From: Bryoerythrophyllum caledonicum
Lineage: Eukaryota > Streptophyta > Bryopsida > Pottiales > Pottiaceae
Direction: 5' to 3'
Assembly (NCBI GenBank): GCA_963971425.1
Contig: OZ020518.1
Coordinates: 17,550,990 to 17,614,989 of the forward strand
DNA length: 64,000 nt
Shown here piece by piece: positions 25,499-57,266 of this stretch. A program made the translations under genes and the position numbers. The first letter of the stretch is position 1; the number at the start of each line of letters is the position of its first letter. Under the pieces are notes generated by a model that saw only the letters and a list, made by a program, of their open reading frames with translations, was not told the origin of the DNA and searched no databases.

Positions 25499-25799
25499 CT
25501 CCAGCCATCTTGGCCGACCTTCTCTCTCCCCGAAATTTTTCCTTCTCTCCAGAAATTGTTTTCTCTTCCAGGAACTCTCCTCTCTCTCCCTCCTACTCTA
25601 AAATCTTGTCATCCCCCCCTCAAATTTTCTCCTTTATCTCTCTATCTAGTTCTCTCTCTCATAGGTTCTCTCTCTCTCTCTATTTTGTCTTTTTGGAGTT
25701 GGGGTTTGAAGAAGTAGTTGAAGAAAATGAAAGAATGAGATGCAACTAGGGTTTCAAGAAGAGGAGGTTTCAAGAGGAAGTAGCACAAGAGGTTTGAAG

Positions 25800-35505: not shown

Positions 35506-35775
35506 TAAGATAAGTATTAGATAATCCTTCCAATAAGTATGGGAGAATAACTTGTAGGAATGGACATCAATGAAGAAGCATATGAAGTGGGTATTTTAGC
35601 TCGAATCGAGGTAAGTTCAGGCGTTTGAAAATAACTTGCATTCAACTGAATCGACATTGTAGAACAGGAAAATTTAGCTCAATTCGAGGTAAACACATAT
35701 GGTATTATATAACAAGAATGTAATTTTGTGGGACCAGATTTAATGCGAAAATGAAATAATTACAGCCTTGATAAT

Positions 35776-36182
35776 GATATTTTAGCCCGACCCGACCTGA
35801 AATATTGACTATTAGACAGTATGACAAATTAGCTCGACTCGAGGTAAACTAACGTGGTAAATAAGTTTCGACAGTTTAGCTCGACTCGAGGTAAATTGTC
35901 GTAATAATATGATATGACGGTTTAGCTCGAGACGAGCTAAAATGTCGTTTATAATACAATACGACAGTTTACCTCGAGTCGAGCTAAACTGTCTTACCTT
36001 ATTTCCAACGACAGTTTTCCTCGAGTCGAGCTAAACTGTCGTGGACAAGTTCGTCTGACAGTTTAGCTCGAGTCGAGCTAAACTGTCGTTATTAAGTTAG
36101 GCTGACACTTTAGCTCGACTCGAGCTAAACTGTCGTTAGTGTTATGGAATGATAGCTTAGCTCGATTCGAGCTAAAATGTCC
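35776..36182. repeat. Right palindrome array, nine units at 47-bp period
   Basis: Units begin at 35776, 35823, 35870, 35916, 35963, 36010, 36057, 36104 and 36151, spaced 47 bases (one interval is 46). Each unit holds a near-perfect palindrome of about 31 bases (GACAG arm, TTTAGCTC-N5-GAGCTAAA core, CTGTC arm) and a variable linker of about 16 bases. Units 36010-36135 are the most regular. Older half-units are seen at 35594 and 35672. The array lies directly upstream of the DUF7869-like gene. Confidence 0.92.
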
Positions 36183-38276
36183 TTCCGTGATTCTCGGCGT
36201 CATTTTCGGGCTTCATACAGACATACTCTTCAGCCAATGGATCTGGCTTTCTGTATACTAGAGCCCAAATCTTTGCGTTAGTCATCGAGATAGTCGCACT
36301 GACGCTTCAAAATCACAGTAGCTACAGGAAGTAGAGCAATAAGCATTTCTCTCACATCCTAAATGCTAGAGTGCAAGGATAATGCAAGAAGTATACATTG
36401 TGTACCTTCTGAAGTAGACAACCGGTGCGTGGCCGCCTCGCGCAAGCGCCCTGCTCAACTGTACGCAACCAATAGATGTTGAACTCCTCAACCTCCCACA
36501 ATTGTACCACCTCCAAGCCTCCCACCCACCAGCCTTGCACATCAACGAAACTGAGAATGAAAAAATGAGAAAACTGGTCGAGGTTCGGCGAGGTCACTCA
36601 CGGTAACACGACCGTTTCCATTCCGGGCTACGACTTTAGAATTGGCGGGAAGAAACTTTTCCACAGCCCCATAAAAAGTGCAAATTTTAAATCTCGGCGG
36701 GAAATTGAATCTATTATTTCCCGGTCGACTAAAATAAGGAAGAGTACAAACCTTGAATATATTCGCACATGCGAGTAATATACACATAACTATGGGATTC
36801 AGGGTTAGGGTAACGCGCAGGGTTTAGGGTTAGGTTTAGAATTTAGGGTTAGGGTTAGAGTTTAGGGTTTGGAATTTAGGATTTAGGGTATAGGGTCCTT
36901 GGTTTAGGTATTATCCTTGTGATGATATTTCATTTCAATTTACTAATAGTTTGAATATTCCGGATGTTGACAATTCAACTAAGGTATAGGGAAATGTAGA
37001 GAAGATATTGAGATGAATAGAAAGAATTTGTATTACAATCCAAATAGGACTTATCTATAAAGTTGAAAGCAAAGACCTTAACAAACGAGTCACATTAAAG
37101 AAAACAAAAAAACATATTGTATGTGCACGTGTATTTTGAGCAAAAAAGTATGTATTCAAAAATGCTTTGGACATCATTTCTTTGGGGTTTTTAAAAAGTG
37201 CATAATGTTACTATTTTGTAATCAATTTATAATGTTTATTCTTTTGCAAGAATCCCAAGTGTCCCCAAGTCTGGATTTGGAATCGAAATTGGTTACTATC
37301 CACTAAGTACTCAAAGACCGAAAATGTGCGCAAACTAATAGTTGGATTAAAATATCTTATTCTTTAGTTCAAATTGTATTATCATGAGTTTAGGGTGTGA
37401 CAATCTAACATGACATTAAAGATGGAGAAATTCTTGACCATACACAATTTATTTCATGTTTTGACGTGAAATTTAAGACTTTGTCATTTGTAAAACATAG
37501 AGAGTGGAACAATATTAAAAGATTTAAACAAGAAATGGAATGACCTCCTCATGAGAAAAAAAGGATAATCAAAATATAAAATACAACTAGTACAAAGTGT
37601 ATCACTTAGTGCATCAAGCATAATTTAATGATCACAATGTAAGTAATTTTAAATTTTATACATGCAAAAATTAATAAATAGTTTATGAGCACGTTCATGT
37701 GGTCGCAAATTATATTTCAAATTCTCAAAATTTTGTAAAAGGATGATAGAAGTCATGAGGCATATTTCTAAGTAATTTATTTTCTCATTGAACGTCTTCA
37801 ATAAAAGTTAGGCTAGCCAGAAGAGGAACTTCTTGATTGTCGACACGTCGACCAACTTAAAAAACCTTTTGCTATGACACACTGTGGAATGTGATATTTT
37901 AAATACATAGAAGTAATATTAGAACGTTTGATATTGTGGAAAAACATGTTATTTTTCTAGTGAAAAATAAGATTATATCCCAATTCATACATTTTCACAC
38001 ATTGTCAAATATTATGGATTTATGGTACGAGAAATACTTAGATTTCATATCCATTGAAGACTAGGAGATCGTCATATTTTTTTGCTTTTTAATATTACTA
38101 TTGGAGGTTTAGGTCTACATAATTTGAAAATCCTTTTAAAATTCAAAAGATTTTTATTTCACCTTGTGAAATACTTAACCATAAAGAGAAGTATGGAGTT
38201 CAAAATGATTGTTTGAAGAAATGGAAATACACATTGCACATACATCAACTTGGTTTGTAGCAGAGGTGTGCTCCAA
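36183..38276. other. AT-rich non-coding DNA
   Basis: Contains a minus frame of 81 codons (36597-36352) without recognised motifs, the telomere-like tract at 36801-36905, and a diverged inverted relic of the TTAA element (about 37870-38060, with GTGGAATGTGATATTTT and CACACATTGTC blocks). I see no gene. Confidence 0.35.
36801..36905. repeat. Interstitial telomere-like TTTAGGG tract
   Basis: About twelve degenerate copies of GGGTTTAG or GGGTTAG words. This is the plant telomere type, imperfect, and consistent with an old interstitial tract or a minisatellite derived from it. Confidence 0.7.
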
Positions 38277-38288
38277 GAAGAAGAAGAA

Positions 38289-38313
38289 CGCCGGTCTCCG
38301 AAGGAGGCCGGCG
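38289..38313 (-). other. 3'-UTR hairpin of LINE A
   Basis: On the minus strand CGCCGGCCTCC-TTC-GGAGACCGGCG forms a stem of eleven positions with one mismatch and a three-base loop. It is followed by TTCTTCTTCTT. A terminal stem-loop plus short tandem tail is a plausible RT recognition signal for LINE target-primed reverse transcription. That role is inference. Confidence 0.6.
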
Positions 38314-38560: not shown

Positions 38561-40513
38561 TTAAGGGGGGTCCTGTGTATCTGGGAGGACTTGATTGTTT
38601 TCGATTTTGCGTTTATGCAGGAGAATGGACATGGCATATTGAATAGCTATGGTGTTAATGTTTTTAAAGGAGGTTTTAATTGTTTCAATGGGTATCTTGA
38701 AGTTATCTTCAAGAGATTTCATAGATGGGGTAAAGGTGGTGGCACGAGCGCCGGAAGTGATTACAATAAGGGGGTCGACATTCCATCCGAGGGCGATGAT
38801 GTCGTCAATAAGGGGTTGGTATTTATCTATTTTATTTTGGATTGTTTCCGGGGAAAATCTGTCATTGCAATATGTGAACTCAATGAATTGAATGGTGTAT
38901 TCTTGGTTGATGTTATCGGGTGGTGGGTCATTATATGGTAAACCTTTAACGCAAAGGATGTCCGGTTTGAGCCGAGCGTTACACTGACATCTTTGGGTCA
39001 TACATGAGCATGGGAGTAGCCAAGGGGGGACCGTATTTTCTTGTGGATTATTATTAAAAGTGTCGGCGTTCATTAATATGAAACATCTCGATTTATTGTA
39101 GGATGTAATTAGTTTTCGGACTTCCCATACCGCTTTATTGTGTCTTTTAACAATTAAAGAGTGAATGTGGTGGTTTTGGCATTTGAGTAGAACATGGAGC
39201 CATGTGTCGGGGTCCGTTGAGGGGCATATGGGACATGTTATGGATGGGAATCTTTCTGTTCCAAAGAAGAGTTGTTTGCGAGCGTTTCCCATATACTGGC
39301 CAGTATGGAATTTGATGAGGCATGTTATTTGTGAGTCTGAGATGTTGGGGTTTTTCCAAAAGTTTGTAGAGAGTTCATTGTCTATGTCGTTATTGTTAGT
39401 CCATTTTTCTATGTTAGGAATATTTTCTGAGATTGTATCCAGGTTGTTGTAGAGGTCTTGTTTTTTGAGATATTTGCCCAAAAATCTAATTGGGCCTTTG
39501 TCGGGGGTATCTTCTTTGGAAGGCCAATCTTCTTTTTGAAAGTAATATGGGGTGGCATGGGCGTGTTCGTGCGGGTCTTTGGCATTTTTGTGTGTTTTTT
39601 CTCGGCCTTCTTTTGCAAGTTTGTCTGCTTGTTCGTTGCCATCAATGTTGGCATGGGCTCTAACTTTGTGAAGGGTTGTGATTTGTATGCGGTTTTGTAA
39701 CATTTGTACCATTGATGTTAATATGGTTTGGTCGGGGTGACTGTTGTGAAGGGTTGGGTGTGTTATTTGAGTGTTTAGCAGGTAGAGTGCATTTATACAA
39801 TCGGTGAATATATGTGCAGGTTCATTTTTGTATTTTGTTGTGATGATTTGTAGTGTTTTGTGAATGGCCATAAGTTCTGCTCTGAGGATATTTTGTAGTC
39901 CATGGAGTCTTTTGGCTAGTTTAATTTCTTTGGTAGAATTATATATGCCATATCCAGCTTTTTCTCTGCGCCAAGAGCCCGGGCTAATTTGTTCCGGTGG
40001 TTTAAAGGAGCCGTCGGTGTAATAACTGTGTGCGGGGTTAAATTTTGGTGTGGTATGAGTTGGGTAGTCTGGGAGAGGGGGAGGTATGACGGAGTAGTTT
40101 AATGTGTTGTGGATATAGTTTAATTTTGACCAATTTTTACTTTTGTTTACGGAGGTTTGTATGGGTGTTGGTTGGGCCGGTTTTGTGTATGGTCTTTGTA
40201 TATCTAGATTGTCTGTTATGGAGGTAAGTTCCGCAAGTTGTTCTAGAGAGCCAATGGTTTGATTTTGTTGATGGACGCATAGTATTTGTAATGTAGATGG
40301 CTCAGTTCGGGGTTTTTTTAGCTCGGGTGGAATATTAGGTTCTACGTATGTTATTGTGTCTTCGAATACTGCAATGATGTGGGAATCTGGGAATGGATTT
40401 GAATGTTGGTTGTTGTTTTGGTACCAATTGTTGTTCGGTGTGACGATGATTGTTTTTGTGTTATTTGGATCGTGTTTGGCGGCAAGTCTAGCCCAATGTA
40501 TGGCTTGTTCCAT
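38561..40513 (-). CDS. LINE A ORF2 C-terminal part: RNase H, CCHC finger, RLE-like domain
   Basis: A 650-codon frame that is the C-terminus of the ORF2 polyprotein. Its upstream continuation runs through about 41050 in shifted frame. RNase H is at about residues 160-305 with 'YTDGS' (Asp167), 'RAELMAI' (Glu213), 'FTDCINAL' (Asp238) and 'VRAHANIDGNEQADKLA' (His287, Asp297), so all catalytic acids are present. A zinc finger C-x2-C-x9-H-x4-C lies at residues 427-445. After it 'RLKPDIL' (Pro517-Asp518), 'IQFIEFTYCND' (Glu545) and 'KIDKYQPL' (561-568) follow the order of a PD-(D/E)XK restriction-like endonuclease such as that of R2 or Dualen. However, the PD-to-acid spacing (27) is longer than usual. 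RNase H would remove RNA from the cDNA hybrid, and the RLE would nick target DNA. The stop codon is at 38561-38563. Confidence 0.8.
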   Translation of the reverse strand: MEQAIHWARLAAKHDPNNTKTIIVTPNNNWYQNNNQHSNPFPDSHIIAVFEDTITYVEPNIPPELKKPRTEPSTLQILCVHQQNQTIGSLEQLAELTSITDNLDIQRPYTKPAQPTPIQTSVNKSKNWSKLNYIHNTLNYSVIPPPLPDYPTHTTPKFNPAHSYYTDGSFKPPEQISPGSWRREKAGYGIYNSTKEIKLAKRLHGLQNILRAELMAIHKTLQIITTKYKNEPAHIFTDCINALYLLNTQITHPTLHNSHPDQTILTSMVQMLQNRIQITTLHKVRAHANIDGNEQADKLAKEGREKTHKNAKDPHEHAHATPYYFQKEDWPSKEDTPDKGPIRFLGKYLKKQDLYNNLDTISENIPNIEKWTNNNDIDNELSTNFWKNPNISDSQITCLIKFHTGQYMGNARKQLFFGTERFPSITCPICPSTDPDTWLHVLLKCQNHHIHSLIVKRHNKAVWEVRKLITSYNKSRCFILMNADTFNNNPQENTVPPWLLPCSCMTQRCQCNARLKPDILCVKGLPYNDPPPDNINQEYTIQFIEFTYCNDRFSPETIQNKIDKYQPLIDDIIALGWNVDPLIVITSGARATTFTPSMKSLEDNFKIPIETIKTSFKNINTIAIQYAMSILLHKRKIENNQVLPDTQDPP

Positions 40514-41070
40514 GTCTTTCTCGTTGTGGGGGTGAGCTATGCCATTTCCGATCCATTTGTGGTCAAAGGCCTTGCCTAGGGATCCAAATAATTTATCTCT
40601 TTCGTAAGGTGAGTAGAATTTATTTAGTTTGGTAGGACATGTGATCGGGGAGGAAAAGTATGAGTGCTCGATGTTAAAGGATGAGATTAGTGATTCTAAG
40701 ATGGGGGTGGGTATTGTGTATTGTGCATTTTTGAGGGGGTCAGCTTTTGGTATTCGATATTTATACCTTTGGTAAAGCCATATTAGTTCGGTTTCAAAGG
40801 GTTGGGTTGTTGGTTCAATGTTTGTAGGGGTTTGGAATTTTGTATGATATTGTTTCCATAACCATTGGAGCCTGGTAATGGGTATGGTGTGTAAATGTCG
40901 GCCGTTTTCTTCGTATAGATGTGCTTGATTGTTATCTATTTGAATTGTGTTTGAGGATGTAAGGATATCATTTTCGGGGTTGCATTCTGTTGTGTAGATG
41001 TTTAAGAGTGGGATAATTATGGGTGGTGTTACGGATCTTGAGTCTGGGAGTTGTTCTTGGGGGTGATGGG

Positions 41071-43908
41071 CTAAGATGATATCCGCGTATGTTTTGTTTT
41101 GAATTTTTGGTAGTATTGTTTCAATTTTTCGGTGTTATGTGTGGAGGTATTGGTATCGTGTCGTGGAAAAAGGTCTCTTTGGGGGAGCCATTTATTATAT
41201 GTATTATCATTGTGTTGCCATTGACATAGATATTTTGTGTAGGTATTTTGTATGTTGTTTGTGTTTGTGTGTTGGATATGTTTATGGTGTATGATGTTAT
41301 TAATGGGATATGTGGTAGGGTTTTTGGGGATGTATGTTGGGGGGTGGGGGCGGGGGTGATATGTATGTGGAGGGTTAGCGGGATTGATTGGTGTGGGGAT
41401 ATTTCTTGGGTTGATGTTATTGTTGAGGGTGATGAATGAATCTTTAAGTATATGAGAGTATAAATGTATGTTACAAGGAATACGACATATATTGGGGCAT
41501 GTTTGGTGGCAAAATAGTTGTTTAGCAATATTTAAGGCACTTTTTAATAGTTTGGATGGGGTGAAGTGGTAGGTTTTGAAGTCCTCGTTGTTCATGATAT
41601 GTGTGCCGTTGGGTAACGTAATTTGGGCTAATTCAAAAATATTTTTTGAGAGGAGTTTTTGTAGAAGCTTTTGGAAGAGTTGGGCATTTAGTGTGTTGTG
41701 GTTTAGTGTTTCTTGTCGCCATAGTGTTTCAAGTGTTGTAGGATTAATGAGGAAGTTTGGGAGTGTGCTTTTAAGGTAGACTTTGGCTATATGTTTTAAT
41801 AAGAAGAATGTCCGTGTTATTGGTGATCTTAAACAGTCGCTTTTTTTAATTCTGGGTATGTTTTCGGCGCCCCCGTATTGGGCGAGGATGTAATGAGTTA
41901 ATCCATTATAAATTTTCCCAAGTCTACCTTTATCGTTTAAAGCATTTTGTAGTTGTTCTCCTATACATCGGAGATATGCGTTTTTGAGGGAGAAAGCTTC
42001 AAGACCAAATAGGTTATGTGGTAGTTGTGTTATTACGTTTGACATACATTTTGGTAGTCCACATATGGTTTTTTGTATGGCGATTATTTTTTGATCAAGT
42101 TTTTTGATGGCTGGCATAGAGTATGGTACCCCATAAAAACTGTATGCCACACCTGGGCGTAGTACGGTATCAACCATTTTTATTTTTTGTTTCATGGTGG
42201 CCGGACATGTTGTTAGTTCTTTGCATTGTTTGATGAGCTTTGTGGTTGTAGTGTGGATTTGGATTTTCCATTTTAGTGAGGGAACAAGATTTGTACCTAG
42301 GTATATGTATGGTTCGTTTTGGTGTAGTATAGGAATTGGTTGGTTGCGGTAGTTGATGTTAGAGGCTTGCATTAGGGCTTTGAAAGTGGTAGGGTTCAAT
42401 TTAGATTTATTTGGACATCCGGTAGCGGCACATTTTGGAACTCCCACATCCATGCCAGCCCATTTACAATATCTATCAATTTTATTGAGTTGTATTTGGA
42501 TTGATTTGATTTTGTTAGTTATGGTGGCTAGGTCATCCGCGTATGCGGCGGAGTTTATTGTGACTTGTGATGTGCCGAAAGTATATCCATTATTGCCTCT
42601 TTCTAGCCATCTAAGTAGTGGTTCTAAAAATATAATAAATAGATATGGACTGAGGGTGTCCCCTTGTATAGTTCCTCTTTGGATGAGTATAGGTTTTGTT
42701 TTCCCAAAGTGTTCGCCGATATAGCAAGTAGATGATTGGGAATAGATGTTTCCAACAAGTGTAGTTGCCTCTTTTGGGTAGCCAAGGTCTGACATTATTG
42801 CTAGAAGTCTGGCATGATCAATTGAGCCAAAGGCATTTTTGAAGTCCACGTATAGTATGTATATATCTTGGTTAGTAAATTTTGCGTCTTCTAATGCGGC
42901 TATTATAGTTTGTATTTGCCGTGCGGTACTTCTCTCCGCTCTAAATCCTTCTTCACTATCATGTAGGATTTTGAATTTTTTTCCGTATGAGGATAGTATG
43001 TGGGTGAGTGTACTGGTAAAAAGCTTATATATTGTGTTAGCTAGTGCAATTGGTCTATGATTGGGTAGCATGGATGGATCGCCTTTTTTGTATAGTAGAA
43101 TTGTTGCACTTGTTTTCCATGAATTTGGTATTTGTTTTTGTTTATAGCAGTGAGAAAAGAATAGGAATAGTAGTTTATGAAATCTTGGAGGCATGTTTTT
43201 GAGTATTGAGTTTGGTATGCGGTCTGGGCCTGGGGCTTTATTATTTCCAAGATTTTGGAGGCATGTGTCGTATGTGGCTCTGTTGAGGTATTTATGTAGT
43301 GGAATTTATGGTTCGCCCCGTTTGTCAAGGGTATATCCGTCCAGGTCGTGCCAAGGGTATTGGCGTATTGCACATGTGCATTCTATTGTATGTTGTGGCT
43401 GGTAATTACATGTTGGTACTGTTGGTCTATTGGTTTTTGTTTGTTGGTTGAATATTTCATTCGCAATGTCTTCGGGGCTAGTTAGAATATTATTATATTG
43501 ATCTTTGATACAATCCATTGGTGGGGATTCAAGGTTTTTAAAGACTTTTTTGTTAATTTTTTTGGGGCTGATTTCGTATAGTTGTCTGTATTTTAAGATG
43601 GCTTTTTTAATGTTTTCTTTTGTGTATTTTGTGATTATTTTTCGGGCTTGTATGTTGGCATTTTTTGCAATTATCGCGATATCTTTTATCCATGTATCGT
43701 GGGGAAGGTCCGGAGGCGGCGGGATAGGGATTTGGATGTGTTGTATAGTTAGTAGTTCGTTGTGTATGGGGTGGTTACGCCATTGAGGGTTGTTTTTTAC
43801 AATTCTAATGGTTTTACGTATGGTATGGTATGTGGTTAAGTGTTGTTTCCACGTTTTAGAAAGTTTGCGGGGTAGATACCCGCCTTGTTGAGAGGTTCTG
43901 TTTGTCAT
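41071..43908 (-). pseudogene. LINE A ORF2 reverse transcriptase section
   Basis: One frame from 43908 to 41071, interrupted by a TAA at 43306-43308 (copy B has GAA there). It contains 'NNKAPGPDRIPN' at the RT start, 'NHRPIALANTIYKLF' (motif 2a-like), 'LYVDFKNAFGSIDHARLL' (motif A, catalytic Asp), 'GTIQGDTLSPYLFIIFLEPLLR' (motif B), YADD at 42543-42532 (motif C) and 'PYIYLGTNLVPSLKW' (motif E region). A thumb-like region and a Pro/Thr/His-rich stretch follow. A frameshift at about 41120 moves translation to the next frame. Family: LINE RT, which makes cDNA at the nicked target. Confidence 0.9.
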
Positions 43909-44173
43909 TTGGGGTATTGAGTGTGCTCTACAAGTTTGTTCTAGTGTATCAGAGATTTTATTGATGAGTTTGTCTAGAGAGTGGCATGCTTCTTGCCATT
44001 GTGCTTGTGTTAATTGACTATTGATTTCAAGAGTGTTTATGAGGGAGTCTATTTGTATGGTGTTTTCTTCGAAGAATTTTGTGTTGAATTTTTCTATGTT
44101 GGTTTTTGGGATGGGGTTGAGTATGCGTATAGTGTCTTTGTTTGGGATTGTAGGAGTTCTACTAATTAGTGTG

Positions 44174-46024
44174 TTATTTGGGATGTGTAGTTGTACGAGT
44201 GAGTGGTCCGAATTGAGTAATATCTTTGTTTGTTGTGGAGGTGTATTGTGTGTTGTTGTTTGTATTTATATAGAAACCATCTATTAGACTCCAATCACTA
44301 TAATTGTAGCCACCTTGTCTAGAGAATTGTGTATCGGTATTGATGTAAGTGAAGTTTAAGTTTTCTGTGAAGCGGCGCCATTGGTAATCAATGTTTTGAG
44401 GGGGGGTGTGATGGTTTCCATTTTGGCGGCCAATTAGCGCTATGTCTCTATTGAAGTCTCCACATAATAGGTATGTATGATTGGGATGATTATTAATATG
44501 GGTTGTAATAGTGTTTTGTATATCTAAGAGAAATCTAGTATCTTCGGGATGGGATGGCATATACATGTGAAAGATTAACCACGATTGTAGTGGGTGATTA
44601 GTGATTTTAATTATTTGAATGTATGGTGATATGTGCATTGGGGTAGGGATTTTGTTGATGTTGCCGGGGAATGTATATTTTCTGTGTATTAATGTAAGGA
44701 GGCCACGGCGGCCCGGTGTGTATGGTCTCCTTTGTTGCATGCATCTTGTAAGTGCATGTGTATTGTTAAAGATGAGTTTATAGTCTTGAAATATATTTTG
44801 TATATATTTTGTAGATTTTGTGGCGGTTAGTTTTGTTTCTTGTATAACTATAAGAGCCGGTGGTGTGTCTGTGTTTGCGACTAGAGTTTGTAAGCTAGGA
44901 AGGGCAGTGTTTAGTGAGGAGGCATTCCATGTGATTATGTATGTATTTTCTTGGTTTGGTCTAATGTTTTGATTTTGGTTTTGAGGAGGGATGTAGGGAA
45001 GAGGTGGGGGTGGGTGGGTGTATTCTGGTATAGGGTCTAGACATTTTAGTGATTCACTTATGAGGTTGTTAGGGAGGTAAGGGAATTTTAGCTTTATTAT
45101 ATCATTTGAGGGTGGTATGTCTTGACTATGTAAGAAGTCGTATAGTCTTTTATGTAATGAGTTCTCATGGTTTATAATATTTTGGTTGTCTACTAGGAAT
45201 TCAGTATAGGGGTGTGGAGTGTAAATGTGTCGTTCTGGTGGGTTTTGTAAGGTTAGTAAGGTTTGTAGGAGTGTATTAGTCCATGTAATTGTGTTCCAAT
45301 TTTGTGGATTTAGAAGTTGGTTACATTCATCTATGTTTGGATGAGTAGTGATTATTAGTGCATATAAGATGTGGGGTGGTGGATGTGTATTTTTTTGTTG
45401 TATGTATTGGGCAATGTTTGGGTGGGAAGTGTTGTGTATGTGGTGTAATGTATGTGTGTTTTTTAGAAATGGTGCGAAGGGTTTTGCAATGTGTTCATAT
45501 TCTGGTTGGAGTTTTATGGTATTAGGTATAAAGTAGATTTTGGCATTTTTCTTATGTGATGTAGGATGTCTTTTTAGTATATTGGGCATGGGTCCCGGGT
45601 TGGTTTCAATGTCTCCTCCTAGAAGTAGTAGAAGTTTGTGGTATATATGTTTAGTGGTGTATTTTAAAGGCTTTGTTGTGTTATTAGTGACTTGTTGGTT
45701 TGGGGGTAGGTGGATGTTTGTATTTTGTGCGTGAGTTGTGGGTTTATTTATTTTTATAGTAGGTGTAGTTGTTTTTGTCTTTAATTTATTTTTTGTCCAT
45801 GTGTTTTTTGTGGTTGTTTTTGTTTTAGTAGTGTATGGATGTATGTATGATTGGTTGTATTTTATCTTGGTTGTTTTTGTCCATGTGCATATGTAGCTAT
45901 TATGTTTAAGACTATTTGTATGTGGTGGTGGGGGTGGATGAGTGTATTTAGGGAGGGGATTTAGGCATTTTAGTGCCTCGTGTATGATAGTGTTAGGGAG
46001 GTAAGGAAGTCTTTGTTTTAACAT
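44174..46024 (-). pseudogene. LINE A ORF2: second 2A, unknown domain, APE endonuclease
   Basis: A 616-codon frame starting ATG at 46024, inside module 1. It finishes the first unknown domain and has a Thr/Lys-rich linker (45900-45680). It then has 'LLLLLGGDIETNPGP' (45634-45590), the second unknown domain (about 230 aa, HYTHPPPP-like end near 45000), and an APE-type endonuclease. The endonuclease motifs are 'ITWNASSLN' (about 44940), 'VIQETKL', 'LLCGDFNRDI' (about 44460) and 'WSLIDGFYIN' (about 44285). The last motif (SDHS-V) lies after a 2-base frameshift near 44225. The endonuclease would make the first-strand nick. Confidence 0.82.
45590..45634 (-). other. 2A-like ribosome-skipping motif, LINE A site 2 (intact)
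   Basis: Encodes LLLLLGGDIETNPGP followed by M. It has the full D-x-E-x-N-P-G-P signature with an upstream Leu run. In known 2A peptides the ribosome fails to join Gly to the final Pro and continues, giving two proteins. Confidence 0.85.
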
Positions 46025-46506
46025 GTCATTTGTTGGGGGTGTATTTTGGTTGTGTATAAAGTCATATAGTTCCTTGTTTATCGATGTGTTGTGGTTTATG
46101 ATGTTTAAATAAGAAATGTTGTGTGAGGATGTGGGGTGCTAATGTGTCTTTCGGGGGGGTTTTGTAGATTATGTAGCATGTGAACGAGTGTGATGGTCCA
46201 TTGGGTTATGGTTTGATTTTGTGTGTTTAGGAGTTGATTGCAGAGGTCTTTGTTGAGGTGTATAGTGATGGCTAGGGCATATAGAATGTGTAATGGGTGG
46301 TGTGCATTATGTTGGTTTATATATAAGGCGATGTGTGGGTATGCGTTGTTATGTTGTTGATGTGATATATGTGTGGTTTTGAAAAGAGGGGCAAATTTTT
46401 GGGCTATGTGTTCGTATTCGGGTTGTAATTTTATGGTGCTTGGTATGAAGTATGGTTTGGCATTCATTTTGTGCAAAGCGGGGTGTCTTTTTAATATGTT
46501 CGGCAT

Positions 46507-46551
46507 GGGTCCTGGGTTAGTCTCTATGTCTCCTCCTTTTAATATTAGTAG
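46507..46551 (-). other. 2A-like ribosome-skipping motif, LINE A site 1 (intact)
   Basis: Encodes LLILKGGDIETNPGP followed by M, the same signature as site 2 and about 920 bases upstream of it. Flanking protein on both sides is homologous to that around site 2, so the two sites are a tandem duplication. Confidence 0.85.
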
Positions 46552-46959
46552 TTTATAGTAGATGGGTTTTTTGTTATGTTTTAGAGTTTTTTGTTTTTGT
46601 ATGTGTTTGTGGTATTCTGTTCCATCCCTTATTTTTGATTTTTTTTGGGAGCATATTTGATTTTTAGTACTGTTGTTTGTTGCTACGATCTTATTATTTG
46701 TATTCTTATGACAATGGTTTTCTACCTTGCCCTTTATTTTCTCCTTACATATCCTCTCTGATTTTGTTCTTTTATGTTTAATATTTCTTGCTCTATTTGG
46801 AACCTTTGAAATTTTATAAATATCTATCTTCTTCCTATTTAATTTATTATATCTCTCTTTATTCTCCTTGATTTTCCTATTTTTTGCCATTTTAATATCC
46901 CTTGTCTTTTGAGGATATGTAGTTATAAATGTGTGTGTAGTTGTTTTTGGTTTAAAGTT

Positions 46960-47130
46960 TGTACATATGTTAGTATGTATCCCGGTTTTTGTCTTAGTAT
47001 TTGTAACAGTATTCGTATTAGTATTTTTGTCAGTATTCGTGTTAATGTTCGTATTGATATCAGTATAAGTATTCGTATTTGTATCTGTATTTGTAATAAT
47101 ATATATACTAGTATGTGTACCAGTATTTGT
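46960..47130 (-). repeat. Coding minisatellite TNTNTYTD in LINE A
   Basis: Six- and twelve-base units of the type AATAC(N)AATAC(N) encode alternating Thr with Asn, Asp, Tyr or Lys. Equivalent tracts occur in copy B at different positions. Confidence 0.75.
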
Positions 47131-49104
47131 TTGTTCTTTGTAATTTTTGGTGGGGTATTTGTGTTTGTTAGTATATTGTATGTTGTGTGTCATATAGTAT
47201 ATTGTCGACTCAAGCATTTTATATAATTTTTGGGGGATATGTATGTTTTTTTGTATTTTAGTGAGGGGTTTTTTGTAGGGTAGTATATATTCTATTTTGG
47301 GTATTTTTGTGGGCGTAGTATTATGTATGTTTGTATACCTTTGTAGACATAAATGTATATGTTTGTATTTATACTTGCGAGGAATACAGTAGGTGTAGGT
47401 CATGTGTAGAATGTAGTCTAATTTGTCGTCCTTATCACATAGTATGAGAGAATTACTAGTTACCTTGTAGTCTTTGGACGCTACATGTTTGACGGGTTGC
47501 CCTCCAAGCTTGGCTTGCCAATTGAGCTTGTGATGGCTTGCATTGTTGCATATGCGGCTCCCATGGACTCTTGGATACTTAGCATTTGGACCCTTAGTTC
47601 TTCGTTCTTTGCATCCACATACTCCTTCACTTCCAATCTCATCTTCTTGTTGATTTCCTCCACAATTTCCACTATGTCCTCCTATGTCCTCCAATCTCAT
47701 CTTGTATGTTGCCGCCGTGTTGACCATGGCGGAGTTGATGTTGTCAAAGCCAAATTGTTGGATTTGTTCTTGTGAGGGTGGCTCTTCTCCTTCCAAACTC
47801 CTTCGATGTGGTGCAAAGTCCACATAATTTCCTTCAATGTTGTATGTTTTTCCCACAAACTCACGGTACACAATGGGGTTAGCACAATGTATATTGACAC
47901 TACCATTGTGTCTAGTTCCAACCACTTTATGGAACCAAGTCTCTTTAATGTTACTTGCACCTATAATTTTATGGATTATGTTGGTAGTGTCAATGACACT
48001 TATGCGTAGAGGTAGAGGAGAGAGGGTTAAGGTTAGAGCGTCTTTCTTAGCTTTGGAAGTTTGCGTGGCTCGTCCTCCGGAGATGTGTTTGACATGGAGT
48101 ACTTCGTGTTGAGTTGTGATTTGGTGGAGGTTGATCCTTTTGGCTTGCTCCGGGGTTGTAGCCATGATGAAAGCATGAGAGTCCTCCTTAGACTTGTGTA
48201 CTCCCGTGACTTCGATTTCTTGCCCTCTTGTGAAGCTATTGTGTAGAATGTCCTTGAAGAGTGCTTGTGCTGAAATTCCTACAATGGAGTCACTTTTCAC
48301 TTTCACGGATAGGTTAGAACTTGCAATGTGATGGAAGCTCTTGCAAACCTTACCTATGGTGTTGTGGCCATCAATTTTGAGTATAAAAGGTCTAATGCCT
48401 TTGAGCATCATAAGACCATCAATTTCTGGTTTTAATAGGTGCAATTTAACAATACCCGCCCATACTCCTTTTTTCCCCCCTTTTTTAACACTAAAGCATT
48501 GTATGGAGATAGGATCAATGAGGTCCTCACCAAGTTCAATTTCCATAAGTTCTAGTCTTTTAACAACCATGTTTTTAACTTCATCATGCATCATCGGGGA
48601 GGTAGGAGGCTCAAAATGAATAGCAACTTGGAAGTCCAATGTCAAACCTGAGGTATTATTGACAATAATATCACAAGGAACCTGGGTTATGTTGAAATGT
48701 TGGCCCTCCACGCCATTTCTTGTGCTTGGGTATAATTGTTGGGGAATCCTTGGAAACGCAACTTTGGCAATGCTTGCTTCCTCTGCCTCCTCCTTCTTGA
48801 GGCCCCTAACCATTAGATCTTGAGCTGTCTCTTTTCTAGGGAGCTCCTCCATGCCCTCCTCTTGTGCAAGAGTCTCCATCACTTCAAATCCGAACCAAAA
48901 GTTAAAACCCATGTTCAAGGGTTCGAGTGTGAAGGACTTACCTCTTCCTTCTGCGGTGTTCTTGTATTTCTTGGAGCTGCTGGTCACTTCTTCTGGTTTT
49001 CTTGCAAACTTCTCCTTTATGGATGTGGTGGAGATTGTCGCAGGGGACTCTATTTCCATGGCTTCCTCGAGGAATAAGTTTCTTTTGGGGTCCCCACTGG
49101 ACAT

Positions 49105-51765
49105 TTTTGAAAGGGAGGGGTTGCAAGTGGAAGTTGGAGGGTCGCTGGGAGGGTTTGGGGGGTCTCTAGGGGGAGCTAGTAGGTCGTTGAGGGAGGCTAC
49201 AGGGTCGCTATGCCGAATTGGGGGGTCGCAGCCTTGGTTGGGGGGTTGCAGCCATAGGATTTCGGGTCGCTGTTGGGGTTTTACAGGTCGCAACGGGGTT
49301 TTACAGGTCGCTACTGGTTTTGTTTTGGTAGCTACGGGGTTTTCTGGGTTGTTGCGGGGGGTACCAATACTCCGCGTTCTTCTGTGCAGGTCCCTTGTGT
49401 GCGGGGGAGGGAGTTCGGGGTTGAGAGGGGGAGGTTTTTCCAGGGGGTTGTGAGGGAGGGTTGAGAGGAGAGGTAGGGAGAGTTGAGGTTCGGGGGAGGG
49501 CGGGGAGGGGTAATCGGGGAGGTACGATGCTAAGCTGGGGAGGAGGTTGGGGATCGGCAGATGGGGGTGGGGTTGAGAGGATGGGGAGTGAGGGTAGGGT
49601 TAGGGGAGGTCGGGTGGGGGAGGGAAGTATCAAGAGTGGCAGGGGTAGAGGGAGGTTCAGTGGGGTCGAGAGGGAGGAGAGTGAGGGGAGGGTCAGGGAG
49701 GGTCGGGTGGGGAGGGAGAGTGGGGATGGGGGGGGTTTTAGCAAGGGTGTGGGGAGGTGCGTATGGGGGGGGTGAGAGGAGATCAGCTGTAGAAGGGGGA
49801 AGGGGACGAGATGGGAGAGTGAGGTTGTGGGGAGGGAGAGTGAGATCTGGGGGTGGAGTTTAGGAGAGATGGGGTTGGTGGTTTGGGAAGAACCTGAGAT
49901 GTTCTGTTTTGCCCTCGCGTTCGCTGTTGCTTGGCCCCGTGCCTGCTGCCGCTCGTCCCGGTGTCTTCTGCCGCGCCTGCTGTTGATCGTCGACCTTGTC
50001 TCCGCGTCCTCTGTCCGCGAACTCGTCTCCACGTCTACTGTACGCGAGCTCGTCTTCACATCCACTGTCTGCGAACTCGTCTCCACGTCCACTGTCTGTG
50101 GGAACTCGTCTCCCCGTCCTCGCGTTCAATTTCGTCCTCATTGCTCGCCCTTGTGTTCGCTACAACGCTTTAATCGTTTCCTCAGGTACTGTCCTCGAGA
50201 TCTCCCCTTTGTATTTCCTTCATGGTTCGCATGTGTTGTCCACGAGCTCACTGATTCGCAGGAGCTGTCCGCGAGCTTGCCCCTGGAGCTGTTGGGAATG
50301 GATTGGGTCTAGGAAGAGTTTCTGTGGTTGAGGGAGGGGCTAGGGTGGGAGTTTGGTTGAGGTCGGGATTTGGGATTGTATGCTGGCAGGGATCTAAATG
50401 TATCTGTGCCTTGGGTTTCGAAATGGCAGGTAGGTGGGGGAACCGTGGAGTTCCGGGGGGCCCAGACGCTAAGTTTGTCTATGTCGCGTATTCCGAGAGG
50501 GCAGAGAGGGAGCAGGTCTGTAAGTAGGTTGAGGGGGGGGGTTGAGGTGGGGTAGGCAGTCTTGGGGAAGGGGAGGGCTTTGGAATGTATGGGCGTGAGG
50601 GAGGGAGGGGGAGTCAGTGTGAGGGGTAGGGTTTATGTTAGGAGGGAGGTGTTGAGCACTGGTGGGGTGGAGGGGGAGTGATCTGCAGTCGGAGAGGGGG
50701 ATGTCTCTGTGGATCCGGGGTTTTTTTTGTTCTAGTTGTTGCTTGCTCAAGGCTTCTACTTGGTGATAATTATGTGGTTTTTCTATCTTACAGGGAATTC
50801 GGCAGCGCTTCCGCGTGGGGAGGATAGATCTGGGCCATGGGATGAGGTAATTGGTGTGTAAGTAGGAGGTGGATCTGCTACTTGGTGTGTTGTGTCTATC
50901 TATTGGTGTGTGTGGAGAAGGGGAGGGATATTCCGGGTTTTGTGTAGGCAGTGTTTTCTGTCTAGATGTAGTGTTGCTAGTGTTGTGCCTGAATGTGTGA
51001 AACATGATGTTCCATGTGAGAGAGGTGAGGGTTTGTGATCTGGAGGTGGCTCTTCTATTACAACAAAAACGAGGATGGTAATGAGACTTACCTAGATCCG
51101 GTAGGGCTGATCCGTTGGTGTGCTCGTGCAAGTCAGATATGTGGGGCGCGGTCAGGATCGCTGGTGTTGTGCTTCTCGTCGTTCCCAGATTTGTTGCTCC
51201 GTTGTTGATGTTGATGGCAGCTCTACTGCTGCAGCTGGTCCGCTGAATAAAGCAAACAATTTTGTATACGTTTCTACACACTACGTTAGTAGAACAACAA
51301 GATAATAACAAATACTTGCACGAAATGGGTGGGTGAGGGATAGCCTTATAGAGTGCGCAAGATCTCCTGAACTCGTGTTTGCTAGTCCTTCCTCCAATGT
51401 TGTATGTTGTGGCGCTGGTTTGGAGAGTGTGGGACTTGTGGGCGGCTTGCAGGTCTAGTAACTCTCTCAGATTAAGGCAATAAGGTATGTGGGTACTTTG
51501 AAGAACAGATCAGTGTCCAACATAAGTCCCCAAGCTTTCAGATCTAACTCTCCACACATCCTACATCAAAGCACCTCGATCACCTCACTAATCCTCAGAT
51601 CTGGAGTTTATGAGCCCTTCCAACACCGCCTGCTTCCTAGGCCTAACCCTAAAACCAAATTAGATGCAAAATAGGGGCTCTCGACAAGGTCCAACACTCC
51701 TTGTGGCCTATAGTGTATGATTTGAGACTAAGTCCCACACTCTCCCTCACCAGAAACTACGGAGC
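49105..51765 (-). other. LINE A 5' leader
   Basis: About 2.7 kb of leader upstream of ORF1. It is C-rich on the minus strand with Pro/Ser/Leu-rich open frames lacking ATG starts (for example 50092-49301). It includes a short decayed GGGTCGC-type repeat (49330-49135), a 27-bp tandem array at 50016-50110, and a consensus splice donor CTAG|GTAAGT at 51091-51090. The first 290 bases (51765-51480) are similar to the start of copy B. Confidence 0.55.
50016..50110 (-). repeat. 27-bp tandem repeat in the LINE A leader
   Basis: Three complete 27-base units (50016, 50043, 50070) and partial copies on each side, built on GCGAACTCGTCTCCACGTC. It encodes a nine-residue repeat on either strand. It has no equivalent in the copy B leader. 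Confidence 0.85.
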
Positions 51766-52054: not shown

Positions 52055-54314
52055 TGCTCCGTAAACTCTGGTGAGGAGGGCGCAGGGACTTAGTCTCAAA
52101 AACAAGTGCTATAGGCCACAAGGAGTGCTGGACCATGTGGACGAGCCCCTGTTTTGCACTAAGTTTTTGAAAGAAGGAGTGAGCTCAAGAAGCAGAAAAG
52201 TGTGTTGGAATGGCTCAAACTTTTCAGATCTGAGGTTAGCACCACCGATCTAGATGTTTTTGAAGAGAGATTTGTAGTGGGTTGTTCTGAAAGCTTGGGA
52301 AACGCGTGTTGGACACTTAGATCTATCTTCTCCCGCATCTGAGAGTGCTAGTGAAACCAAGGATCTGAGAATCAGTCCCGATCTGTGGAGCCCTCCAGCT
52401 AAGTCCCGTGCGTCCCCCCAACCCAGGCATCGCAACATCCAGCATTGATCCACGAACCAGCCCCCCCGAGCTCACGGACGATTTCAACACGCACATTCAG
52501 GTTACATTTCACGCAATTAGTGGTATTACATACTTTGTTTTATTTGCTTCATGCATCACATTTGCCTCAGCTATTCTCATACACATTATAGCTTCAGATC
52601 TCACCAATACTAATCACAACACCTTAGATCTCACACACACTAGTCACAATACTACTCATTAGCACCATGGCACTAACCCTCTAACCCCTAAGCACATAAG
52701 TAGGTTGTATATATTTGCACGCCACACGCGGAAGCGCTGGCAAAATCTCTACAGATCTACACGAGCACAAGGAGCAGGAAAAAACGTCAACCCGCATAGA
52801 AGGAAGCAGATCCAATACGAGGACACACGCCCCAGCAACAGAGATGGCAAGAACAAAGCTGACCTGAATCAAAACGAAGACAATACAGGTAAGTCCGCTC
52901 TCCTAAACCCTAGCTTTCTTTACATTCCTCCTCAGCTCCCCTCCTCCTGCAACAGGTTCCCCATCCCTCCCGCTCTATCTCTCCCCTCCTTCCCTCCTCT
53001 CCCCCTCCCCTACATTGACCATAGATCCCCCCCCTCCCACGGATCCCAGTCCTCCCAACCTCCCCAGATCCCCCCCGCAATATTCCCCTCTCCAGATCCA
53101 TCGTAGACGTCGTAGGTAGAGCACCAGAAGAAGCCATTATACACAAGGAAAAAAAGAGAGCCGCAGGTACTCCACGCGCGACAGAAGTGGTAGGCGCAGT
53201 AGGCGCTTCACGCGTAAGAAGCGAAGCAAGATATCGTCATGAAGTAGGCGCTACAGGAGATCCACACTCAGCAGTGCACACACAAACCGGAGAAGCAGAT
53301 TGGCCACGCGAAGCCGCAAAGAAGCATACACAAACCAACGCAGGCGAGAAGACCAAAGTCAACCTCTCCACAGGACGATCAGACGCAGCAGGCTACCCAT
53401 GCGCCGAAGGACAGAAGTTCACACGAACCTGCAGCACAAACAAGAAGAGAATCAGCATCACAAAAGACAGTCAACACGTACTCCAGAGTACGCACACCGA
53501 AGCAGGCAAGGAAATCTTGAGCACTCATCGACCTCATCCCTCCCGGATCACCCCACAACCAGACCACTCCCTGATCACTCCTCCCCGAACCCTCCCTGGT
53601 CACTCACCAATATCACACCCCAAAGCCACCCCTCACCCACTGATTTCTCCACCCACCATACTGATCCTCTCATCGAGTCAGGTCCCCCCCACACACCTCC
53701 CCGAACCCTCCCTCGCACAGAAATTCTCGAAGAATTCTAGAAACCCCCGGCCTCCTATCAGCGCCCTCTCCCCTCTTACTGATAGCGACCCTCCAACTAC
53801 TGGTAGCAACCCCCAGCAGGCGAGCAACGACCCTACTCTTGTAAACAGAGACTCCCCAACGACTGGTAGCGACCCCCAGCTGGCCCGTAGCGACCCTACT
53901 CTCTTGAACAGCGACCCACCTTTTCTAACCTGCGACCCTACATTTTTGACCTGCAACCCTCCTCTCCCCGTTAGCGACCCTCTAATTCTGTTCAGCGTCC
54001 CCCCCTACCAAACTAGCGACCCTCCCAACCTTGCTAACAACTCCCCTCTATGCATTAACGACCTACCAATAACGGCTAGTGACCCCCCTCTGTGCAATAG
54101 AGACCCACCCAGAACGACGAGCGACCCCCCCTTGTGCACTAACGACCCCCCCCTTTCCAACAGTTACCCCCTTTTCTGTACTAGCGACCTTCCCAGCTTC
54201 ATTAGAGACCCTCCCCTGTTTAAAAGCGACCTTCCTAGTGTAGTTCGTGACTCCCCCTTCCTTGACAGTGACCCTCCCAACAACATTAACGGCCTCCCCT
54301 ATCTTACTAACGAA
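52055..54314 (+). other. LINE B 5' leader
   Basis: Starts with sequence matching the inverted start of copy A (GACTTAGTCTCAAA, CTATAGGCCACAAGGAGTG). It contains a consensus splice donor CAATACAG|GTAAGT (52888/52889) and a possible acceptor CTCCTGCAACAG (about 52951). Frame 3 is open without any ATG from 53187 to the ORF1 start. Its last 530 bases hold a repeat of about 13 codons. Confidence 0.55.
53784..54310 (+). repeat. AGCGACCC-type degenerate minisatellite upstream of ORF1
   Basis: About fourteen diverged units of roughly 36-45 bases, each containing AGCGACCCNCC and in frame with ORF1 (reading SDPPL-type repeats). Copy A has a shorter relic at 49135-49330. Confidence 0.7.
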
Positions 54315-55937
54315 ATGGGTAGTAGCAAGAGACTTCTCAACTTCAAGGAAACGGTAGACGAGGACACAATGGTGATTGAAAAAATACCATGGCAAACCGA
54401 AGAAACCCATATCACAAGCAAGAAAATGAAGAATGCCATGATTGAAGAAAACTCGCCACACATCTCTCAACCGGTAAGTGCAAATTTCAAATTTTGGTTG
54501 GGATATCCCACCATGGAGGCTATTGCACTTGAAGAAGGACTTCAAGAGCTTTATAGTGGTGAAACCGCCGAAGACATGATAACAAGAGGATTCAAGGTGG
54601 AAGAGGCGGAAGAGGCAAGCGTGGCAAAGGTGGCATTTCCCCGCATCCCGCAACTACTTTATCCAAGCACAAGAAATGGAGTGGAGGGACAACACTACAA
54701 CATCACCCAACTACCGTTCGATATCACCATCAACACCTCCACAGGTTTGGCTCTAGACTTTCACATTGCAATTCACTTTGACCCCCCTTCCTCTCAACTC
54801 ATGCATGATGAAATCAAGATAATGGTCACTAAAAGATTAGAGACAATGAGCATAGAACTTGGTAAGGATCTCATAGACCCTATCTCAATCCAATGCATGA
54901 GTATGAAGAGTGCGGGTAAAAAAGGTGTATGGGCGGGGATAATCAAACTACACTTGTTAAAACCCGAAATTGATGGTATCATGATGCTTAAGGGGCTTAG
55001 ACCCTTCATTCTTAAGCTAGATGGTCATAACACCATTGGAAAAGTTTGTAAGAGTTATCAAAATATTGCTAGACACTCTAACCTCTCTGTCAAAGTGAAG
55101 AGTGACAATTTGAAGGGTATTTCGGCCAACACCCTCTTCAAGGATGTTCTTGTGAATAGCTTTCGAAGAGGGCAAGAGTTTGAGATTACCGGAGTCCAAA
55201 AAGGTATCGATGACACTCATGCATTCATCATGACCACCACACCACAACAAGCGAAGAAGATCCAACTACATCATATCACTACACACCATGAGGTCATACA
55301 AGCCAAGCACATCACCGGAGGGAAGGTAACACAAGAGTCTAAGGCAAAAAAGGATGCCTTAACTCTAACTCTATCTCCCCTACCTATCCTTATGAGTGTT
55401 AATGATACAAGTGATGCCATTCGCAAAATCATTGGTGATGCTAACACTAGGTCTATTTGGTTCCATAAGGAATGTGGAACTAGGCACAATGGTAGTGCTA
55501 ACGTACATTGTGCTAACCCAATTGTTTACAAACAATTTGTGAACAAAAACTTTACCATGGGAGGATACCTTGTAGAGTTTGCACCACACAGGAGAAGTCT
55601 AGAAGGAACGGAACCCCCCTCCGAAGCACAAGTGAAGACATTCGGGTTCGATGACATTAACACCGCCATGATCAACACGGTGGAGACCTTCATGATCCAA
55701 GAACCCCCATCCAACATTACCAAGCAAGAAGTGTTGGAGATAGTGGAGTCGGTTATGGAGGAAAGCAACAAGAAGATGAGGAAGGAGACACGAGAGTATG
55801 CCGATCACAAACACGAAGAATTGAAGACTCAAATGTTGAGCATCCAACAAGCAATGAGCGCCGCACTTGCCTCAATGCAAGCCATCACGGGATGCTTGGC
55901 TACACCCATGATAGAAGACAAGCCGCCAAACTTGTAG
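54315..55937 (+). CDS. LINE B ORF1 protein (540 aa)
   Basis: Intact. The start is the first ATG of the frame (MGSSKRLLNF), although the frame is open upstream without ATG. The N-terminal 50 residues are acidic/basic mixed. The body from about residue 55 (FKFWLGYPTMEAIALEEGL) to about 440 is the family-specific domain, with 'ASVAKVAFPRIPQLLYPSTRNGVEGQH', 'LLKPEIDGIMMLKGLRPFILKLDGHN' and 'TRHNGSANVHCANPIVY'. Residues about 465-515 form a charged coiled coil (EVLEIVESVMEESNKKMRKE). By analogy with other LINE ORF1s it should bind element RNA and multimerise through the coil. I recognise no RRM or CCHC motif. The stop overlaps a second frame that begins at 55892. Confidence 0.8.
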   Translation: MGSSKRLLNFKETVDEDTMVIEKIPWQTEETHITSKKMKNAMIEENSPHISQPVSANFKFWLGYPTMEAIALEEGLQELYSGETAEDMITRGFKVEEAEEASVAKVAFPRIPQLLYPSTRNGVEGQHYNITQLPFDITINTSTGLALDFHIAIHFDPPSSQLMHDEIKIMVTKRLETMSIELGKDLIDPISIQCMSMKSAGKKGVWAGIIKLHLLKPEIDGIMMLKGLRPFILKLDGHNTIGKVCKSYQNIARHSNLSVKVKSDNLKGISANTLFKDVLVNSFRRGQEFEITGVQKGIDDTHAFIMTTTPQQAKKIQLHHITTHHEVIQAKHITGGKVTQESKAKKDALTLTLSPLPILMSVNDTSDAIRKIIGDANTRSIWFHKECGTRHNGSANVHCANPIVYKQFVNKNFTMGGYLVEFAPHRRSLEGTEPPSEAQVKTFGFDDINTAMINTVETFMIQEPPSNITKQEVLEIVESVMEESNKKMRKETREYADHKHEELKTQMLSIQQAMSAALASMQAITGCLATPMIEDKPPNL

Positions 55938-56896
55938 AGTCCAAGGACTACAAGGTAACTACCATTAACCATACACTATACAAAATACATACAAAGTATA
56001 GTATAGACTATAGATACCATACTAGTACATCATATGTAGTAGCATACAACCATACATCCATACATGGGATGTATAAAAATTGTATTAGATCCCACATTCA
56101 ATACAAATACACCATTTTATACAAAAGGGAATACATATACACATACTCAAATACATATACTAATACAACTACCAAAATACATACAAATACAAACTCTCAA
56201 AACATACATACAAAAACATATACGAACAAAAATACTACCTACAATGTACATACACACATAAAATCCACCACATACGCAAAAAGATGCAAAAACATAAACC
56301 AATATTTACATATTAAGACTAACACAAACCAAGATACAAAAATGAACACCAAACCAAGTAACAAGAACAACATACAAAACAATAAACCAAAACAAAACAA
56401 CAAACTAAATAAAATCACTACAACTACCACTACATACATCACAAACACAAACAAAAAAACCACAAATACGAGAAACAATAGAACATATACAACCATAAAG
56501 AAAAACACAATAAAAATAAATAATAAAAACAAAGAACCAATCCATCCAAAAAATATATTCAAACCAAAAAATCAAAGAAAACAACAAACTAAAACACTAC
56601 ACTACAAAAACAACATAAATAAATATTTCCATCTCACTAGTAATATACAAAAAGTAGTTCTCACACACTTTACAATAATACACAATACGGTCTATACCAA
56701 ATATATCTTACAACATAAATACATGCACAAAATACCCAATCATTATACCAACTACCAAACATGTATTAAAAGATACTTCCTCTATATAAAATATAAATAC
56801 TATACCCAATACTACTCTAACTATTATACCAAGAATCAAACACCAAACACAAAAATTTATACACACACATACACACACACATGTACACAACTATAA
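55892..56896 (+). CDS. Low-complexity Thr/Asn/Lys/Tyr frame overlapping the ORF1 end
   Basis: A 334-codon frame beginning ATG at 55892 inside the ORF1 3' end (MLGYTHDRRQAAKL). The run ESKDYKVT is shared with copy A, where it is in the ORF2 frame, so this is probably the start of ORF2. The rest is simple TNT/KN-rich sequence from ACA/AAC/AAA codons. It stops at 56896. The frame that carries the 2A motifs is one step away, so either a frameshift has occurred in this copy or this AT-rich section is not translated as one piece. Confidence 0.4.
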   Translation: MLGYTHDRRQAAKLVESKDYKVTTINHTLYKIHTKYSIDYRYHTSTSYVVAYNHTSIHGMYKNCIRSHIQYKYTILYKREYIYTYSNTYTNTTTKIHTNTNSQNIHTKTYTNKNTTYNVHTHIKSTTYAKRCKNINQYLHIKTNTNQDTKMNTKPSNKNNIQNNKPKQNNKLNKITTTTTTYITNTNKKTTNTRNNRTYTTIKKNTIKINNKNKEPIHPKNIFKPKNQRKQQTKTLHYKNNINKYFHLTSNIQKVVLTHFTIIHNTVYTKYILQHKYMHKIPNHYTNYQTCIKRYFLYIKYKYYTQYYSNYYTKNQTPNTKIYTHTYTHTCTQL

Positions 56897-57170
56897 AATA
56901 CACACACATACACCAAAAAACATACACAAAATTACACAAAAAAATAAGAAAACAGACAACAAACAAACATACAAAAAAATACAAAACAAATCACATACAC
57001 ACAAACACCCATACATACACACAAATGTACACACAAAGAAAAAGAAGAGCGCCGGTTCCCAAACTAGAACTAAACAAAAACATAGAGCGAAACACACACA
57101 AACTAATACACACAAACCCACCCTAAACACAAAAGAACTAACAACCATATGTGAAAAAAACACAACGTCC

Positions 57171-57200
57171 CTCTTATTATTAAGTGGTGACATCGAAATC
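57171..57200 (+). other. Degenerate 2A-like motif, LINE B site 1
   Basis: Encodes LLLLSGDIEI in the ORF2 frame, followed by KIT in place of TNPGP. The Leu run and SGDIE are typical of 2A motifs, but the essential NPGP is lost, so no skipping is expected. Confidence 0.55.
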
Positions 57201-57266
57201 AAAATTACAAATACACATACGGATATTGGTCAAAATACGTTTAAAAGAATACACACAAATACGAGT

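Follow-up and report, generated by a model that had tools for sequence, protein, structure and literature searches.

Serial 2A–X modules in ORF2 of two LINE copies and their relatives, and a possible origin by joining of 5′ parts

How does a LINE come to carry two 2A motifs in series, each followed by a copy of the same domain, and is the upstream module of any use to the element? Both questions are raised by the window, the whole stretch of 64,000 nucleotides that was analysed. Among its contents are two long LINE copies that run in opposite directions; copy A is read from the minus strand, copy B from the plus strand.

Layout of the two LINE copies and their 2A sites

The Pfam domain order in copy A, an APE endonuclease followed by a reverse transcriptase (RT) and an RNase H, is that of an APE-type LINE, with PF03372 at 24.8 bits (barely over its cut-off of 24.5), PF00078 at 91.6 bits and PF00075 at 49.5 bits. 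The features are given below by their positions in the window, with the domain between 2A and endonuclease denoted X.

Inside the frame 46105–49599, minus: ORF1 of copy A, from the ORF list
46888–46890, minus: candidate ORF2 start codon of copy A (MAKNRKIK), common to copy B at 57654–57656
46507–46536, minus: upstream 2A of copy A (2A-1), GGDIETNPGP after KPIYYKLLILK, from the motif search
45920–46506, minus: X1 domain of copy A, about 200 aa, with a frameshift near 46105–46138
45881–45898, minus: SYICTW, a stretch following X1 that may be left over from an endonuclease start (compare TYIITW after X2), a weak likeness seen by eye
45590–45619, minus: downstream 2A of copy A (2A-2), GGDIETNPGP after HIYHKLLLLL, from the motif search
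44970–45589, minus: X2 domain of copy A
44414–44935, minus: APE-type endonuclease of copy A, Pfam Exo_endo_phos
42295–43080, minus: reverse transcriptase of copy A, Pfam RVT_1
40430–40834, minus: PCIF1_WW-like domain of copy A, between RT and RNase H, Pfam 43.4 bits (cut-off 31.1)
39602–40027, minus: RNase H of copy A
38289–38313, minus: likely 3′ end of copy A, a stem-loop and then a (TTC)n tail
53025–55937, plus: ORF1 frame of copy B, 970 codons open from stop to stop
56790–63998, plus: ORF2 frame of copy B, 2,403 codons open, running off the window end
57165–57212, plus: possible third 2A of copy B, eroded (TSLLLLSGDIEIKITN), scoring 8.8 against a maximum of 4.7 among 336,310 shuffled positions, on a matrix derived from the same relatives that it scores
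58806–58835, plus: upstream 2A position of copy B, degenerate, GGDMETNPRP
59316–59345, plus: 2A-2 of copy B, intact, GGDIETNPGP
59346–59981, plus: X2 domain of copy B

The 3′ stem-loop of copy A is strong (−19.0 kcal/mol for the folded 43-base stretch), and the tail behind it is (TTC)n, not poly-A. PCIF1_WW, a domain that belongs to an RNA cap methyltransferase, is reported in LINEs by no paper among the literature matches listed. The ORF2 spacers hold 12-base tandem repeats at 47048–47130 (minus) and 58336–58587 (plus), coding for Thr/Asn/Tyr-rich runs, and the order of these repeats and the MAKN segment differs between copies A and B. The window also has a DUF7869 domain (141 bits) in a 638-codon ORF at 32825–34741 (minus), and tandem arrays with 28-base and 47-base periods at 25732–26123 and 35775–36228.

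When the 64 kb was searched for D.E.NPGP in all six frames, three sites came up, at 45590–45613 and 46507–46530 (minus) in copy A and at 59322–59345 (plus) in copy B; a fourth site, a bare NPGP at 24435–24446, lies outside the LINEs. The two GGDIETNPGP decamers of copy A are exact and 917 bases apart, a spacing that the sequence-only reading had put at about 920. A Leu/Ile-rich run (YKLLILK and YHKLLLLL) comes before each of them, and MPNILKRHP comes after. In an excerpt of PMC12846837, the 2A core is given as (D/G/C/N)(V/I)ExNPGP, and a Leu-rich stretch just before the core defines one 2A motif class. DIETNPGP fits this core at both copy A sites, whose canonical signature had rightly been recognised from the sequence, as well as at 2A-2 of copy B, and the Leu-rich stretch is present in copy A as KLLILKGG and KLLLLLGG. 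DMETNPRP, at the upstream position of copy B, does not fit. Gly18 of NPGP has a structural role and is required (PMC12846837, same excerpt), and the NPRP of copy B is for this reason probably inactive.

The proposal of a single polyprotein with two intact 2A sites holds only in part. In copy A, 2A-1 is located in the frame 46105–49599 and 2A-2 in the frame 44174–46138; since 917 is not divisible by 3, the frames differ and the two sites do not belong to one polyprotein now. The ORF2 of copy A is broken again farther downstream. In copy B, both 2A positions do share one frame, 510 bases (170 codons) apart, with most of X1 deleted and a short remnant left, but only one core is intact, and copy B, with its long open ORF2 the more alive-looking of the two, has a single canonical 2A. 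The sharing of both positions by copy B also means that the double module is not peculiar to one dead copy; a single module in other copies would have told against the sequence-only reading, and copy B does not show this.

Constraint on the X copies and uneven divergence between copies A and B

The AlphaFold2 model of X2 (44970–45586, 36 sequences) is all-helical, with a mean pLDDT of 87.8 and a pTM of 0.62, and has no confident match to any known fold. The homology of the domains of about 200 aa behind the two 2A sites of copy A, described from the sequence at first, is borne out by an alignment of the 2A-1/X1 and 2A-2/X2 segments over 681 columns with 69% DNA identity (E 1e-78). The aligned part begins at 46597, some 30 codons ahead of where 2A-1 ends, and stops at 45927, where X1 ends. 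Differences are distributed 31/29/66 over the three codon positions in 133 codons, with pN of 0.196 and pS of 0.734, the silent sites being near saturation. By the Nei–Gojobori method, with bootstraps of pS ≥0.74 discarded, omega between X1 and X2 is 0.078 (bootstrap 0.064–0.225) for the 133-codon N-terminal piece and 0.21 (0.11–0.50) for the 86-codon C-terminal piece. Had either copy evolved without selection after they separated, an omega near 0.5 or more would be expected. Because the values are well under 0.5, X1 and X2 have both been constrained, whether side by side as a tandem pair or in two lineages that came together afterwards. The N-terminal piece of copy A X1 retains 25 of 27 conserved columns, these being drawn from 65 rows that include X2 of both copies and leave out P0115–P0125 of the relatives below.

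Between copies A and B, divergence and selection are both unequal along the element. The region 40926–45925 of A is 94.7% identical overall to 59010–64000 of B, and a near-identical stretch that starts near 45893, between X1 and 2A-2, and ends near 43195 reaches 98.2% (48 mismatches in 2,692 sites), compared with 91.2% past it (198 mismatches in 2,243). Silent divergence is 0.036 in X2 and the endonuclease, and dS is 0.18 in the MAKN segment, 0.13 at 2A-1 and 0.32 in the RT. The near-identical stretch points to a recent exchange or conversion. Omega is 0.12 (0.08–0.16) for the RT and 0.8 (0.3–3.6) for the 59 codons of the 2A-1/X1 start; within this wide error, selection on the upstream module seems to have relaxed between the two copies.

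The simplest answer to the first question is a plain tandem duplication of 2A–X inside the element, after which X1 was long kept as a functional separate protein and later relaxed. It would give the omega far under 0.5 and the retention of 25 columns in X1, and in a tree of 74 X rows X1 of copy A is sister of the X2 of A and B (100/92), a placement that counts against joining of lineages in so far as it fits plain duplication too. However, late joining of two constrained single-module lineages gives the same low omega. Moreover, the ORF1 of A and B has diverged about as far (pN 0.18; pS 0.75, saturated, with only 93 of 200 bootstraps kept) as X1 has from X2, both comparisons being near saturation, and the upstream module seems relaxed between A and B. 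We regard plain duplication as a rather unlikely account.

Serial sites and mosaicism among the relatives

The copy A frame 44174–46138, used as query, gave 114 related proteins, and residues 295–900 of the relative P0022 gave 45 proteins, of which 11 were new (the best 7,984 candidates by shared words were scored). In the resulting set of 125, X was found by HMM search; 19 proteins were without X by HMM and 22 without the X start, which left 84. A 2A motif stands right before X in 68 of these, with NPGP in 60. A second, upstream 2A-like site was seen in seven of the 84, at least 100 residues before X being available in only 45 of the 68, as many relatives end short upstream. Both NPGP are intact in four, P0022, P0027, P0049 and P0122, each with two intact cores in one open frame. 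The upstream site is eroded in P0092 (NPSP), P0095 (NQDP) and P0118 (NLGP); the last scores 1.4, under the shuffled maximum of 4.7, and was counted because it aligns with the P0122 site. A second X copy was found by HMM in copies A and B (in B as the short remnant), P0092, P0095 and P0114. This count, the 2A scoring that included the shuffled positions and the tree cover the set without P0115–P0125.

The X-proximal 2A of P0022, P0027, P0049, P0118 and P0122 has His in place of Glu, and Gln takes the E14 position in P0090 and P0097, as it also does at the upstream site of P0122. A 2A variant with His at position 14 is more than 95% active and the E14Q variant 26–56% active, as stated in an excerpt of PMC12846837. 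The two NPGP are separated by 44 residues in P0122 and P0049. P0118 and P0122 were assigned to the group of P0022 and P0049 from pairwise identities only. Going by their sequences, the four proteins with both cores intact could each give three products.

By eye, P0092 has behind its first X a stretch, YIYITTWNAPTLNT, whose likeness to the endonuclease start TYIITWNASSLNT is clearer than that of SYICTW in copy A. Spacer peptides upstream of 2A, also picked out by eye, are RARPTGLA-like in P0092, P0095, P0102, P0108, P0114 and P0115, and ASAYRPRH-like in P0001–P0004 and P0113; both kinds could be translated GC-rich palindromic inserts.

With respect to the second question, serial 2A may be adaptive, by setting product ratios or by freeing a useful middle peptide. 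All five proteins of the P0022 group with upstream sequence (P0022, P0027, P0049, P0118 and P0122) have an upstream 2A-type site, and NPGP is kept in four of them, though X1 of P0022 and that of P0027 are only 27% alike; this retention hints at a use in the group, for which five sequences are too few to go further. Against this reading, the sequence around the site is conserved as well between P0049 and P0122 (65% over 60 aa), the upstream core is eroded in copy B, P0092, P0095 and P0118, and a second site is absent in 77 of the 84 relatives, though many end short upstream. Taken together, adaptation seems unlikely to us. For the stoichiometry control suggested by the sequence-only reading we found no evidence in the two copies: in the one with the long ORF2 the upstream 2A is not canonical, and selection on the upstream module seems relaxed between them.

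The contrary answer is that upstream modules are decaying debris of recombination or of adjacent insertions, with no role. X1 is degenerate in P0022, P0027, P0092, P0095 and P0114, which retain 7–19 of 27–34 conserved columns, 2A-1 is degenerate in copy B, and the omega of 0.8 at the start of the upstream module, with its wide interval, points the same way. On the other hand, X1 of copy A is well preserved save for the frameshift and was constrained, the upstream NPGP is kept in four relatives, and the frame of copy B is open across the whole region. Debris is a real possibility, though we would sooner doubt it than accept it.

The X tree shows that the arrangement has recurred. X1 of P0092 and X1 of P0114 fall inside the clade of P0092, P0108 and P0114, and X1 of P0095 joins X2 of the same protein (100/91); P0049 X1 and the X1 remnant of copy B were too short for the tree. 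With X1 of copy A, these placements indicate that modules were duplicated independently three times or more. A fourth event may be recorded in P0022 and P0027, of which we are unsure given that their X1 branches are very long, a feature that also weighs against joining of lineages.

Mosaicism is seen when segments of the same proteins are compared. P0022 and P0090 are 62% identical over 122 aa of the N-terminus, 44% in the endonuclease and 28% between P0022 X2 and P0090 X, and P0022 and P0027 are 82% identical in the endonuclease and 29% over 172 aa of the N-terminus. Against P0090 X, the first 70 residues of P0027 X1 match at 48% over 65 aa (52.8 bits) and those of P0027 X2 at 31% over 68 (33.9 bits); P0022 X1 matches at 34% over 50 aa (24.6 bits) and P0022 X2 at 47% over 32 aa (36.2 bits). 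The N-termini of P0027 and P0090 gave no match. From these comparisons P0022 looks chimeric, with the evidence split over two relatives: the like-for-like comparison supports a P0090-like X1 in P0027 and not in P0022, whose X1 is not closer to P0090 X than its X2 is, and the P0027 N-terminus is unlike that of P0090. Such discordances between segments are what joining of 5′ parts between lineages would give. The mosaicism could instead come from gene conversion at the DNA level, and individual relatives, being protein predictions from contigs, may include assembly chimeras.

Proposed joining of 5′ parts and comparison with known systems

We favour lineage joining over simple tandem duplication as the better fit, since the silent sites of X1 and X2 are near saturation with both copies constrained, A and B have diverged unevenly along their length, and P0022 is apparently chimeric. 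What stands of the tandem duplication first proposed is that the double module was inherited and that serial sites occur in relatives.

The account to which we lean, by a modest measure, is that modules accrete at the 5′ end by recombination or template switching, and are tolerated since 2A unlinks the upstream sequence. ORF2 runs from a variable spacer through 2A, the conserved helical X, endonuclease and RT to RNase H. Judging from the motif, 2A most likely frees the spacer, and the ribosome would continue from the proline with X, endonuclease, RT and RNase H. Foreign 5′ sequence could then be added in frame without burden on the enzyme; such additions would be cheap, which would explain the variable region before 2A. 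Recombination between LINE lineages, perhaps by template switching of the RT at insertion, would have happened repeatedly, so that spacer, 2A and X from the 5′ end of one element came to stand before the 2A, X, endonuclease and RT of another, with a serial 2A–X–2A–X as the product. The layout, its recurrence, the mosaic divergence and the unequal selection are observed; skipping, template switching and the tolerance of added sequence are proposed. For same-orientation LINE-1 chimeras, an excerpt of PMC13174262 gives template switching, RNA ligation and trans-splicing as routes. In the family of the window, the upstream module would have been long constrained and is now seemingly relaxed, its 2A being canonical in A and degenerate in B. 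An active second 2A, in an in-frame ancestor resembling copy A, would have yielded a middle product of about 306 residues.

A broader proposal is that 2A serves as an evolutionary joint for in-frame capture of 5′ ends, that serial modules record such captures, and that at least one lineage keeps working three-product polyproteins; this we put forward tentatively and hold to be somewhat doubtful as a whole. If it were true, 2A would be a reason why LINE 5′ ends are exchangeable, beyond its part in expressing ORF2, and the relatives would offer a natural set of 2A variants outside viruses, some with His or Gln where Glu is usual.

The 2A of LINEs and the serial 2A of picornaviruses are each already known. 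The L1Tc element of trypanosomes is a 2A-bearing APE-type non-LTR retrotransposon, and 2A is reportedly found in LINEs of multicellular organisms (Odon et al., 2013). These 2A-bearing APE-type LINEs likewise combine a canonical 2A with an APE-type endonuclease and an RT; the LINE of the window is unlike them in its two serial 2A–X modules, the long spacers before 2A and a distinct X. Among the matches listed from open-licence PubMed Central, none described serial 2A in LINEs, most subscription literature, including Odon et al. (2013), lying outside that collection.

The nearest parallel is found in the picornaviruses of the Paavivirinae, which have multiple 2A-NPGP sites according to an excerpt of PMC11512398. 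There, as here, serial 2A varies in number between two functional blocks and differs among close relatives. The tracts between sites are about 50–150 aa in these viruses (PMC11512398, same excerpt) and belong to the polyprotein of an RNA virus, whereas in the LINEs the tract is an X copy, its remnant or about 44 aa. The 2A-like signal sequences of sea urchin, as described in part of PMC4981915, are likewise non-viral and release an upstream product, but they are N-terminal and double as signal sequences, whereas the 2A of the LINEs follows long spacers. In the LINE-1 chimeric insertions covered by the excerpt of PMC13174262, a second sequence likewise lies upstream of the LINE in the same orientation; those are mostly a non-LINE RNA joined to L1, whereas here two LINE lineages are apparently joined in frame within ORF2.
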